From IMG/VR virus record IMGVR_UViG_3300025417_000097, positions 1 through 22,644 of that record: a stretch of DNA of 22,644 nt. The stretch is one strand, 5' to 3'. Below, piece by piece: positions 14,891-22,644 of the stretch; position 1 is the first letter of the stretch, and each line of letters begins with the position of its first letter. Made by a program: the position numbers and the translations under genes. Source of the stretch: a virus. Under the pieces are notes generated by a model that worked only from the letters and a program-made list of their open reading frames with translations, did no database searches and had not been told where the DNA came from.

Positions 14891-16318
14891 ATGTCCACTC
14901 AAATGAAACTGCAAATCGCTCGCCTCAAGCTTGAGACTGTGACCGGCGCTTATAAACAATTCGTGCGCATGCCTCAAAACGACATCAGTAAATCAGTCAT
15001 GGTCGATGCCTTGTATAACGAATTATTGCAGGGCTATATCACCTTTGATCAGATCGCCTATGCTACCCCTGTCGCACCTGCCCCTGTGGGCCTTGACCCC
15101 GCGATTGTCGCCAAGGTCGATGCGGCTGGTGCTACTGCCTCCCGCGCACATGATGCAACGATGGCGCATGAGCGCCAAATACACCAGCTTGCTGACTTGA
15201 TGAGTAGTGATCGCAAGGTGATGGACACCATCGCCATGCAGGTCGATTCCCTGTCCGACAAGATCGGCTCATTCAAGGTCGATGAGTCCCTGATCGCGCA
15301 GGCCATTGCCACTGCTGTGGCCGATGAGTTTGCCCCGTTTAAACGTGCCGTGCAGGACCTTCAGGCTGAGTCGGTTATCGCCGATTTATCCAGCGTTCAT
15401 ATCGTTGAAAATCAAACCACCCTCACGGCCTTTGGTGTTGATGTCCGCGATGTCAAGGGGCAAATGATGACCGTATCTATTTGGAACGACCCCGGCGCGC
15501 CATCGGTTGATCCTGATTTTGTTTGGACCGAAGACATCTTGCGCCACCTGATCCAATCCGATAAAACCGGTGAGAATTTATGGTTTGGGGGTGAGCGCGG
15601 TACGGGTAAATCCACCGTGGCTGAGCAATTTGCGGCTCGCACTGGTCGCGCGTTTAAACGCATTAATTTTCACAAGCATACATCCTCTGAGGAGTACTTA
15701 GGGGCCACCGGCCTGATCGATGGTAATACCGTCTTTGAGCCTAAGGATTTTCTGATGGCTTACTCATCCCCTTCATCCATTATTTTGTTGGATGAGGTAA
15801 CCAATGCTGACCCGGGTGAGCTTGCGCCCCTCAATGGTTTGCTTGAGCCCAATGCATCAGTCTCCATCGGGGGCCGTGTCTGGCGCAAAGCCCCGGGGGT
15901 TTTGATTTTTGCCGCTGATAACACCATGGGCAATGGGGATGAGTCTGGCCGTTATGCTGGCGTTCGTCCCATGAATTCCGCGCTTATTGATCGGTTTTCC
16001 CGGGTGATCCCTTTCACCTTTTTGCCTAATGATGAGGAGATCAAGGCAATTGTTTTGCGCACGGGTTGCACCCGGCCACTTGCTGAATATGTTCATCAGG
16101 TCATCCGAGTAGCTCGCGCAAAAGTTGAATCTGCCGATATTGTGGATGCCCCATCCATTCGCTCGGCGATGGCCTTTATCCGCGCTCTGCCCTACATCCC
16201 ATCGCGCCAAGCATGGGAGACCACTGTCGTGGCCCGTCAACCCTCTGAATCCCACGCGGTCCTGCGGGGCTTGTATGAAACCCACATCGATGATGCTTTC
16301 ATCATCAACAACATCTGA
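14891..16318 (+). CDS. CobS/MoxR-like AAA+ ATPase
   Basis: The product is 475 residues. The N-terminal ~200 residues are a poorly conserved helical extension (possible coiled coil near 85-160). The AAA+ module follows: Walker A GERGTGKS (234-241), a MoxR-type insertion region with HTSSEEYLGATG, Walker B IILLDEV (297-303), sensor 1 FAADNT (340-345) and an arginine finger in ALIDRFS (near 368). The layout, including LDEVTNADPGELAPLNGLLE, is that of CobS and MoxR ATPases. True CobS works with CobN and CobT to insert cobalt in B12 synthesis, but no CobN is present here, so a MoxR-like chaperone or remodelling role with the downstream VWA protein is more likely. Two GTTTAAAC copies lie in frame (15337, 15652). 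Confidence 0.88.
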   Translation: MSTQMKLQIARLKLETVTGAYKQFVRMPQNDISKSVMVDALYNELLQGYITFDQIAYATPVAPAPVGLDPAIVAKVDAAGATASRAHDATMAHERQIHQLADLMSSDRKVMDTIAMQVDSLSDKIGSFKVDESLIAQAIATAVADEFAPFKRAVQDLQAESVIADLSSVHIVENQTTLTAFGVDVRDVKGQMMTVSIWNDPGAPSVDPDFVWTEDILRHLIQSDKTGENLWFGGERGTGKSTVAEQFAARTGRAFKRINFHKHTSSEEYLGATGLIDGNTVFEPKDFLMAYSSPSSIILLDEVTNADPGELAPLNGLLEPNASVSIGGRVWRKAPGVLIFAADNTMGNGDESGRYAGVRPMNSALIDRFSRVIPFTFLPNDEEIKAIVLRTGCTRPLAEYVHQVIRVARAKVESADIVDAPSIRSAMAFIRALPYIPSRQAWETTVVARQPSESHAVLRGLYETHIDDAFIINNI

Positions 16319-16325
16319 GGTCAAT

Positions 16326-17894
16326 ATGAAAATTTATAAAGGCTATCAATTCAAATCTGCGGTTTGCGAATTGGTTCACAAAATTGCCCGTGACCTGAAT
16401 TGCAAAATATCAGTTACATGGACCGACCAAATCACGACCGCCGGGATCAATCAGAGAGGGACTATTTATCTTGCTGATGTCGCTGATGACGCGATCCTGA
16501 CTCACAATGACTTAGTTAAATATTGCGGGTTTGCTGTGCATGAGTTACTCCACCGCTTGTTCACCGACTTTACAATTTATGCTGACCACAATTATGTGGC
16601 TCAGTTACATAACGCTGTGGAGGATGCATTCATTGAGCACAAGGGGATCAGTTTAAACACAACCGGGAATATTAAAAACCTGCTGACCACTTTAGTTGAT
16701 AACATGGTCAGTGACTCTCTGGACTCAGTCTCTGATTGGGCCGACCCCCGTCAATACCCTTATGTCTTGGCAATTTATCTGCGCAACCATGCAACCCGCA
16801 AAATTCCATTGGCCAAGGGTCTGGCCCCGATCTTTGATCAGGCCAAAAACATGCTTGGCTCATGTCAGTCATCCGCTGATACTTTAAGTGTTGCCGTGTG
16901 GGTATACAATGAAATAAATAAGCTGAATAAACCCAGCCAAAACCCATCAGATCAAGCCACAAGCCCCGTAAAAAATGACGCCAAGAGTAAGGCCGCCCCC
17001 GATGGGGATAGCCCCTCTAATCGCTCTCCTGAAAACGGCGAACCATCCATTGGTGATGCGACCGCACCATTTAATGATGATGCCTTTTCTGCTGAGCCTA
17101 CACTTGAGGCCCCCAAGGGCAAAGCGGGTCCGGGTTCTTACAGTGAGGATGCACATGTTTGCAAGACCCCCCATTACGGCCCCGGCACTTGGATGGATGC
17201 CACGTTCCCGATCCCCGGTAAATTGCGGTACTCTGTGCGCCAACTGTTTGAGGATTCAGGGATCAATGATTTCCAACGCAATCGCAAGTCTGGTGCAATC
17301 AACATCCATGCTTTGCCCACCGTGTCATTTAATGATAAGGTGTTTAAACGCCGTCATGAGGTTGAAGGGATTGACACTGCGGTGACGATTGTGCTGGATG
17401 TCTCCACATCCATGTTTCAGGATGCCCCGATGTGCTATTCGATGGGGGTATCTGAGCGGATCGTTACCGCGATTCAAACCACCATCGCGCTGATGGAGAC
17501 ACTCGAAAAGGCGCAGGTTGCGGTATCGGTTGTAACCTTTGGCCGTTCCGCTCATATTCTTAAGCCCTTTGATATGCCGGTTAAGAAGGCTATAGCCCCT
17601 CTGCGCTCTCTTTCATCAGGGGGAGGGACTAATGATTACTTTGCCGTGCGCTATGCCCACAAGCAGTTACTGATGCGCCCCGAACAGCGCAAGATATGTT
17701 TTGTCTTGACCGATGGGGAGGGTCACGCTGATAAATGCAAGGAGCAGGTTATTACCGGGGAGAAGATGGGGATCACGACCATTGGGGTTGGTATCTTTCA
17801 CTATGTGGGCAACATCTTTTCTCAGCATGCATCGGTGCGTAATGTGTCCGACCTTGCCGAGGTATCGTTTAAACAAATGAAACTGGCCGCTTGA
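16326..17894 (+). CDS. CobT-like protein: HExxH metallopeptidase-like domain plus VWA domain
   Basis: The product is 522 residues. The start ATG at 16326 follows GAGG at good spacing, 7 bases after the ATPase stop. Residues about 60-110 contain AVHELLHRLFTDF (HELLH, 72-76) and NAVEDAFIEH (96-105), the HExxH plus downstream acidic pattern seen in CobT-like and DUF2201-type putative metallopeptidases. A low-complexity linker (about 200-280, P, S, D, N-rich) joins a C-terminal VWA domain: IVLDVSTSM (MIDAS DxSxS, 358-362), GGTNDYF (MIDAS Thr, about 435) and VLTDGEG (Asp 463). Such VWA proteins bind a partner through a metal ion and pair with MoxR/CobS ATPases, which the adjacency supports. An intrinsic terminator overlaps its stop codon. 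Substrate unknown. Confidence 0.85.
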   Translation: MKIYKGYQFKSAVCELVHKIARDLNCKISVTWTDQITTAGINQRGTIYLADVADDAILTHNDLVKYCGFAVHELLHRLFTDFTIYADHNYVAQLHNAVEDAFIEHKGISLNTTGNIKNLLTTLVDNMVSDSLDSVSDWADPRQYPYVLAIYLRNHATRKIPLAKGLAPIFDQAKNMLGSCQSSADTLSVAVWVYNEINKLNKPSQNPSDQATSPVKNDAKSKAAPDGDSPSNRSPENGEPSIGDATAPFNDDAFSAEPTLEAPKGKAGPGSYSEDAHVCKTPHYGPGTWMDATFPIPGKLRYSVRQLFEDSGINDFQRNRKSGAINIHALPTVSFNDKVFKRRHEVEGIDTAVTIVLDVSTSMFQDAPMCYSMGVSERIVTAIQTTIALMETLEKAQVAVSVVTFGRSAHILKPFDMPVKKAIAPLRSLSSGGGTNDYFAVRYAHKQLLMRPEQRKICFVLTDGEGHADKCKEQVITGEKMGITTIGVGIFHYVGNIFSQHASVRNVSDLAEVSFKQMKLAA

Positions 17895-21430: not shown

Positions 21431-21704
21431 TTGCCCGTAACGCTTGCGTTTAAGTCTCTTATTAAATTTCACCCAAAGACCCCCCTACCCCAGACGGAGT
21501 AGAGAGGGAAAGGTGCTTCACCCCACATTAGTGGATCATCATGTGAACGTTGTGTTCAACCCCTAGGCTTGATGATTCGACCAGCCCCACGGATTATTCG
21601 GGAACTGCCCCCTAGCCTTACGGCATACCGTGTACGCTTTCCTTCCGCGCCACCACGACTGGGGTGCTTGCTATCGTGCGGAGTACGACGGCTGAATGTG
21701 GACG
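21431..21704 (-). other. Gene-free stretch with a cluster of hairpins on the minus strand
   Basis: No credible gene is seen. On the minus strand, ATCATCA (21570-21576) pairs with TGATGAT (21535-21541) around a TGAAC/GTTCA hairpin (21544-21548, 21554-21558). CCAC/GTGG with a TAAT loop follows (21523-21534), then GGTG/CACC (21512-21522) and a pyrimidine run. At 21651-21664 the sequence CCCCAGTCGTGGTGG matches a repeated element of the large RNA to the right, and ACGG/CCGT with a TATG loop lies near 21620-21630. It may be the leader of the 68-residue gene or a further small RNA. Confidence 0.4.
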
Positions 21705-21824
21705 AAAAAAAACCGTTAGGTCTAGCCCCGAGTGAGACGGGCAATCCCTTGCGGGACAGCCAACCCCTTACGGGGCCGGAGCTAGAACTAACGGTTTTCT
21801 TGTTGGCGTCTCACTTCCAACAGT
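21705..21824 (-). ncRNA. Compact structured small RNA (kissing loop, two GNRA tetraloops, own terminator)
   Basis: The RNA runs from about 21824 to the T-run at 21705-21712. Its 5' hairpin pairs GTTGG with CCAAC (21802-21806, 21817-21821 on the plus strand). An outer helix follows: AACCGTTAG and CTAGC on the 5' side pair with GCTAG and CTAACGGTT on the 3' side, with a small internal loop. Inside are CCCC-GTAA-GGGG and CCC-GCAA-GGG, both GNRA tetraloops, and CCCG-TCTCACT-CGGG. The 7-base loop of the last hairpin is fully complementary to AGTGAGA in the loop of the 5' hairpin, so a kissing loop is predicted. The outer helix ends in eight T, so it is also the terminator. I do not recognise a known family. 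Confidence 0.8.
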
Positions 21825-21830
21825 GCGCGG

Positions 21831-21861
21831 ATTATAACCACAACGTGGCATCGCATGTCAA
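21831..21861 (-). promoter_or_regulatory. Strong promoter of the structured small RNA
   Basis: On the minus strand a perfect TTGACA (21856-21861) and a perfect TATAAT (21831-21836) are separated by 19 bases. The discriminator CCGCGC is GC-rich, as in stable-RNA promoters, and predicted initiation is at A21824. The spacer end (CGTTGTGGT) resembles that of the promoter at 13354-13384. The element lies just downstream of tRNA-His, so the RNA has its own transcript as well as possible read-through from the tRNAs. Confidence 0.75.
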
Positions 21862-22127: not shown

Positions 22128-22644
22128 ACCCCCGCACTGGTGTTGTTGGCGGTCTTTAGGAGACTCGTTTAATGTCACAGACCTTCAGCTTGGACACCAA
22201 CACGACTGGGGACTGACGTTCAGTACATTTCGGCTTACTGCGTCTACTCGTCCCGATTTCTCGGCATCAATCCCCATGCGTGTAGGTTGTTGGTGGGGTT
22301 TGGATTTCGTGGGATGTCCATTCTCCCGTGCGCCGTTGCGAACCCAACGGTAAGCGTCCTTCGTCTATCGCACTACACCAACACGGCTGAGGGCTGAGGC
22401 AGTTGGAGACGCGCACCTTGACATGCACCAAGTCTTTTCCCACGACAACCCCCATGCGTGTTAGTTGTTGGCGGCCCTAAGCGGCTCCGGGCGCTGGTAC
22501 ATCCTAACGGGCAAGCTCTCTTACCGTGCCTAAGTACCTTGCTTTCACCAACAAGACTGAAGACTGTTGCGGTTGCGATCCGCGCGGAGCATCGGGATTA
22601 AGGTTGCATATCGTGTTGTGCGCACAAGGGACGACATAGACTTC
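22128..22644 (-). ncRNA. Large repeat-built structured RNA region next to the tRNAs (5' end outside window)
   Basis: This stretch has no plausible gene (one 62-codon frame lacks support) but is highly structured on the minus strand. Two element types alternate. Element A, like CAGTCGTGTTGGTG, occurs at about 22546-22566, 22376-22396 and 22195-22215. Element B, like CCRCCAACAAC then ACACGCATGGGG, occurs at about 22450-22474, 22272-22298 and 22129-22154. A can pair with the following B through TGTTGGTG/CACCAACA, and B with the next A through ACACG/CGTGT and GGGG/CCCC, so alternative folds are possible. Further hairpins include CCGTTG/CAACGG (about 22334-22351) and GGTAC/GTACC. Setting and size recall the GOLLD and ROOL giant phage RNAs, often found by tRNAs, but membership is not shown. 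Confidence 0.55.

Follow-up and report, generated by a model that had tools for sequence, protein, structure and literature searches.

RNA1 is a predicted compact phage small RNA of an uncatalogued family, an assignment that is well supported because covariation is strong, the promoter-like hexamers and the U-run are conserved, no Rfam match was obtained and about 84 phage records contain it. As the comparison of sequences shows, it is a conserved module of fixed architecture consisting of a 5' hairpin (P1), an outer stem of approximately 20 bp (P2) around two further hairpins (P3 and P4), a pseudoknot and usually a terminal U-run. A second structured RNA (RNA2) follows in nearly all loci, and we tentatively take RNA1 to form the front domain of a noncoding transcription unit with two RNAs, a reading that falls just short of probable.

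Genomic setting and distribution of RNA1

The window, i.e. the whole stretch of 22,644 nucleotides that was analyzed, is a 22.6-kb tailed-phage fragment with genes for terminase, portal, major head protein and primase/helicase. RNA1 is encoded on the minus strand, where it follows tRNA-Pro and tRNA-His; the coordinates of its elements and of the adjoining features are listed in Table 1. As given in the preliminary description of this DNA, both hexamers of the promoter-like sequence are perfect and the minus strand carries a 120-nt stretch with eight Ts at its end. The promoter spacer in the window exceeds the optimum length. In 61 relatives the hexamers 5' of RNA1 reach a mean of 9.7 out of 12 promoter matches, versus 7.1 in shuffled sequences. 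The 120-mer folds with -62.2 kcal/mol compared to -36.8 +/- 3.7 kcal/mol for dinucleotide shuffles (z = -6.8), and none of 200 shuffles was as good.

Table 1. Positions of RNA1, its structural elements and the adjoining features in the window
Feature	Positions	Strand	Description and evidence
Sigma70-type promoter-like sequence	21831-21861	-	TTGACA (21861-21856), 19-bp spacer, TATAAT (21836-21831); sequence
RNA1, structured RNA of ~120 nt	21705-21824	-	predicted start ~21824, U8 end; fold z-score, covarying family of 61 sequences
P1, 5' hairpin TGTTGG / CCAACA with 10-nt loop	21801-21822	-	81.8% of alignment cells paired; double changes in 6/6 pairs, alignment ragged
Pseudoknot strand 1, AGTGAGACG in P1 loop	21807-21815	-	covaries with 21739-21731; likewise in type II
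P2a 5' strand, AACCGTTAG	21788-21796	-	pairs with 21719-21711; 99.8% of cells paired; double changes in 9/9 pairs
P2b 5' strand, CTAGCTCCG	21777-21785	-	pairs with CGGGGCTAG (21730-21722); 99.5% of cells paired; double changes in 6/9 pairs
P3, hairpin CCCC-GTAA-GGGG	21764-21775	-	stem invariant in model family; loop GNRA in 12/61
P4, variable hairpin (GGC..TCCC-GCAA-GGGA..GCC)	21740-21761	-	some hairpin in 59/61; absent in L017 and L019
Pseudoknot strand 2, CGTCTCACT	21731-21739	-	abuts 3' strand of outer stem with zero spacer; covariation
P2b 3' strand, CGGGGCTAG	21722-21730	-	partner of P2b 5' strand
P2a 3' strand and U-run, intrinsic-terminator-like 3' end	21705-21719	-	U-run of 5-9 in 61/61 type I
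Linker, CGTCCACATTCAG	21692-21704	-	imperfectly complementary to P1 5' strand and loop (P0); partial match only
RNA2 class A, conserved noncoding element of ~225 nt	21466-21691	-	consensus fold, positive covariation term

Two further parts of the window may be mentioned. Positions 22142-22575 on the minus strand contain three repeat units about 170-180 bp apart and bounded by GTTGGTG..CACCAAC stems, which are possibly degenerate tRNA-like elements and whose folding exceeds the chance level only a little. The DNA just upstream of RNA1 in locus L019 shares 90% identity with one of these units. On the plus strand (14891-17894) an ATPase gene and a cobaltochelatase-CobT-like gene are adjacent (phrog_249, phrog_1576/17276), which are usually annotated as porphyrin/cobalamin genes.

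The search for homologues started from IMG/VR relatives of the neighboring primase/helicase, among which blastn delivered about ten RNA1 homologues ahead of the same gene block. The core pattern of RNA1 is matched by 71 IMG/VR stretches, 70 of which are strong according to the covariance model R1. Pattern matches, primase loci, the window and the GenBank phage MW202545 (L275) together make up the family of about 84 records. Neither RNA1 of the window nor that of related loci has a match in Rfam 15, whether gathering scores or E <= 5 are applied, in agreement with the earlier statement that no known family is recognizable; a published description of the family was not found in a literature search of incomplete coverage. 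MW202545, in which hypothetical proteins are annotated over both RNA1 and RNA2, was the sole match when 50,697 annotated phage records were searched by blastn with several RNA1 and RNA2 queries. Plasmids gave no RNA1 or RNA2 match. A search with model R1, run without a positive control, was likewise empty for 399 genomes from a single bacterial order drawn around Duganella.

The core pattern also matches 120 stretches of bacterial genomes. These were rejected as RNA1, being chance matches or repeats in GC-rich genomes, of which R1 scores only two, weakly (27 bits). In the genome of Alcaligenaceae bacterium CAII-53 (L155-L274), CCCCG..GGGG..CGGGGTC repeats are present by the dozen; they fit the core pattern by chance but, apart from the two weak 27-bit matches, not the RNA1 model. 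RNA1 matches on the opposite strand were dismissed as an artefact of the palindromic P2.

Architecture of RNA1 and pairing of the P1 loop

Covariation of type I RNA1 was evaluated in an alignment of 61 distinct sequences. The long enclosing helix of the preliminary description is borne out: the outer stem P2 is paired in 99.5-99.8% of the alignment cells, and 15 of its 18 pairs show double changes. Compensatory changes, which had been expected for all helices, are present in P2, in all six pairs of the raggedly aligned P1 and in seven of eight pseudoknot pairs, but not in P3, whose stem is invariant. The two GNRA tetraloops of the window are not a trait of the family: the P3 loop is of the GNRA type in 12 of 61 relatives and mostly reads GUAU or GCAU, and P4 is freely variable.

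In the window all 9 nt of AGTGAGACG (21815-21807) are complementary to CGTCTCACT (21739-21731). This pairing had been left out of the covariance model. It is formed in 92.4% of the cells with double changes in seven of the eight pairs (61 distinct relatives), and its covariation score is 0.448, compared to 0.138 +/- 0.015 for shuffled sequences and a maximum of 0.17 for slid partners. The claim of a kissing loop thus stands as far as the pairing is concerned, which is real and covarying, but the P1 loop pairs with a junction strand instead of the loop of a third hairpin. The proposed third inner hairpin (CCCG-TCTCACT-CGGG) was rejected as it competes with the covarying outer stem, in which CGGGG pairs with CTCCG, and only 19 of 61 relatives could form a similar 4-bp closure, wobble pairs included. 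Because of this clash and the rarity of such a closure, the predicted P1-loop pairing is a pseudoknot and not a kissing loop. With the third hairpin unconserved and GNRA loops in a minority of relatives, RNA1 was also not retained as a kissing-loop/GNRA compact RNA.

A sequence-divergent type II RNA1 ('CATGC' type) was found in the course of the search for what follows RNA1, and it has the same architecture. The full 7-bp Watson-Crick score with the partner strand is reached by 31 of 34 distinct type II loops, and cognate loop-partner pairs score on average 13.7 out of 14, compared to 9.27 +/- 0.32 for permuted pairs (maximum 10.6 in 10,000 permutations). The matching of loop and partner in type II therefore provides an independent confirmation of the pseudoknot. 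Further, longer RNA1-like leaders occur upstream of RNA2 in three groups (L296, L352, L376 and L384; L297, L307 and L310; L401 and L402). These leaders possess long 3' stems, mostly with a U-run, and are unrelated in sequence to types I and II.

RNA1 had been described as something other than a plain terminator, and this view holds, with P1 and the pseudoknot conserved and covarying. The alternative of a mere terminator/promoter pair with incidental extra folding is scarcely credible: P2 and the U-run do form a good intrinsic terminator, but this alternative is contradicted by the covariation of P1 and pseudoknot in two sequence-divergent groups. Because the type II relatives L288, L332 and L416 (as well as L403) have lost the U-run and kept P2 and the pseudoknot, RNA1 is more than a terminator.

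RNA2 and the linker

Directly after the U-run of RNA1 an RNA2 of some class is present in 65 of the 67 loci with enough sequence; in L017 a protein gene follows RNA1 directly, with no RNA2. At least four classes of RNA2 were distinguished (A, B, C and D). In the window RNA2 belongs to class A, for which no promoter of its own was seen and no Rfam match was obtained, RF02932 included. Classes B and C are new. The class D RNA2 of MW202545 (L275, 8106-8223) is a Betaproteobacteria-1 RNA (RF02932), scored with 100 bits versus a cut-off of 49; it adjoins the 3' end of RNA1 behind six tRNA genes. RF02932 is thus the partner of RNA1 in L275, and RNA1 itself is not a member of that family. RNA1 as a required upstream element of the Betaproteobacteria-1 RNA in cells was rejected, as no RNA1 was found near nine Burkholderiales RF02932 loci, weak ones included.

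By their own motifs, at least 119 stretches with class A (IMG/VR), 56 with class B and 98 with class C were found, each number being a lower bound. A stem followed by a U-run precedes RNA2 in 80/90 (class A), 28/46 (class B) and 57/69 (class C) of the cases, versus 40/2376 control positions; the class A RNA2s scored as lacking it are mostly misses of the strict rule. Among 88 class A RNA2s, about 21 (L303, L314, L286, L110 and L354 among them) carry a nested insert with a predicted tRNA-like cloverleaf, e.g. GATGGTGTAGCTCAG...GGGTTCGAAGCCAGCCACCATC, with z of about -4.3. Classes B, C and D look like exchangeable cassettes because the genes that follow them differ within a single terminase group of phages.

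No promoter was seen in the 10-50 nt between the U-run of RNA1 and RNA2 in the RNA1-RNA2 loci. Twelve class B loci without RNA1 (L393, L400, L406, L407, L409, L412, L415, L417, L418, L420, L427 and L430) show a conserved promoter-like TGN-CATAAT sequence of the extended -10 type, which lies 14 nt upstream of their first conserved motif. Its position beside the first helix suggests that class B RNA2 may be a gene in its own right, with a 5' end near the TGN-CATAAT motif.

The earlier reading as a small RNA remains valid insofar as RNA1 is a structured phage RNA of a new family, but it is nearly always the upstream half of an RNA1-RNA2 pair. An RNA2 being nearly constant directly downstream, RNA1 is therefore more likely to function as a leader module than as a lone sRNA. 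RNA1 as an independent, fully terminated and nuclease-resistant trans-acting sRNA is a serious rival that we consider somewhat unlikely; it would act by pairing of P1 or through a protein on P3, with RNA2 as a neighboring gene in a cluster of the kind formed by phage tRNAs. It is favored by the promoter-like hexamers and the U-run of 5-9 in every type I sequence, by the diversity of genomic contexts and the existence of L017, and by the invariant sequence of the P3 stem, suggesting recognition. Such a role does not explain why RNA1 stands near-obligately right before RNA2 across RNA2 classes and RNA1 types, why the linker is complementary to RNA1, why the U-run is lost in some relatives and why no promoter of RNA2 was seen.

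The linker, which spans 10-45 nt from the U-run to RNA2, is often complementary to the 5' strand and loop of P1, as in L382 (GTTGCCGTGGAAA / TTTCCACGGCAAC). A first test by broad local alignment (26.1 versus 23.4) was too noisy, and shorter, register-restricted tests were used instead. Cognate 13-mers of type I linkers score 13.8 versus 11.6 +/- 0.36 for permuted ones (0/5000), and 46 mostly type II linkers score 15.4 versus 13.9 +/- 0.28 (0/10,000), in both cases with relatedness not corrected for. About ten loci (L021, L086, L101, L016 and others) lack the pairing, and it is weak or partial in the window. Because the pseudoknot strand and the linker are both complementary to P1, this hairpin could pair with a partner on either side of the terminator.

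The CI immunity RNA of phage P4 is a small phage leader RNA in which a seed has partners in the same leader and termination is involved. By analogy, the P1 seed of RNA1 might pair with the leader of the own or of an incoming related phage and cause premature termination, which would result in a loop-specific immunity. This second serious rival is improbable in our estimate. The seed is complementary to flanking leader sequences on both sides of the terminator, namely the strand before it and, in many loci, the linker after it, and the highly variable loops co-change exactly with their partner, both as expected for such an RNA. Most partners are intramolecular, as in an ordinary pseudoknot, and the GUGGAA core common to many type I loops would limit the specificity. 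RNA1 further differs from the P4 CI RNA in its covarying intramolecular pseudoknot, its perfect outer terminator stem and the second structured RNA that follows.

Possible function and relation to known RNAs

The reading of RNA1 as front domain is based on its linkage to RNA2, the lack of a promoter between them, the complementarity of the linker and the variants without U-run. Transcripts would start at the RNA1 promoter, and the pseudoknotted P2 stem with the U-run would end most of them, yielding an abundant compact RNA of about 120 nt. We assume that polymerases reading through make RNA2, which is promoterless in these loci. In the read-through RNA the linker would replace the pseudoknot strand and pair with the P1 5' strand and loop (P0). 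P0 would close RNA1 into one long hairpin and separate the 5' end of RNA2, probably aiding its processing. RNA1 would thereby set the dose and the 5' end of RNA2, and it may also act alone.

Several observations fit poorly with this leader function. A strong conserved terminator is an odd route to the expression of RNA2, the read-through being an assumption; L017 has a protein gene in the place of RNA2; the linker pairing is not general; and the P2 terminator has no obvious dependence on the pseudoknot, which leaves an attenuation by the pseudoknot unexplained. Cis-regulation of one fixed protein gene was rejected because the flanking genes are diverse among loci, as was a constant association with tRNA genes, which among the scanned loci are present only in the window, L275, L150 and L013.

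In HK022 the put RNAs promote read-through. As a put-like cis antitermination leader, RNA1 would modify RNA polymerase so that RNA2 is completed. Both are promoter-proximal structured phage RNAs ahead of further transcription, and RNA1 is near-obligately upstream of long untranslated structured RNAs, but it normally ends in a U-run, and a terminator that is near-universal in type I runs counter to the requirements of a put site. Because the U-run is conserved, a put-like antiterminator is less likely, and we regard it as highly improbable.

The pRNA of the phi29 type pairs two hairpin loops between molecules. It shares with RNA1 the size of about 120 nt, the origin from phages and two complementary segments that vary together. 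The second segment of RNA1 is a junction strand and no conserved hairpin loop, for which reason a membership in this group was rejected; RNA1 is also not tied to packaging genes.

Transcriptional riboswitches such as those for fluoride and preQ1 (PMC11077080, PMC11625349) have in common with RNA1 a pseudoknot on the 5' side and an intrinsic terminator behind it. RNA1 differs from them in that the outer stem of its own fold serves as the terminator stem. A riboswitch was rejected since types I and II differ in primary sequence and share no conserved ligand-like core, and since the downstream protein genes vary. P4 CI RNA, HK022 put and the terminator riboswitches are the nearest functional analogues of RNA1, and none of them fits fully.

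Compared with the front-domain reading, it is a more doubtful possibility that these loci represent a categorically new kind of phage locus, in which a standard pseudoknotted RNA1 front module is combined with interchangeable cargos from at least four classes of larger structured RNA that look unrelated, some with nested tRNA-like cloverleafs, and P1 picks its partner before or after the terminator, as an RNA-only switch in the competition between phage and host or between phages.

A compact phage genome here spends about 350 bases on two linked structured RNAs (21705-21824 and 21466-21691). Their two-part arrangement recurs in more than 100 metagenomic phage contigs with many gene contexts, and it is nearly unseen in annotated phage genomes, with the single match mentioned above. 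The exact co-change of loop and partner makes the predicted structure directly testable, and the exchangeable RNA2 cargo opens a way towards understanding what the orphan Betaproteobacteria-1 RNA does.
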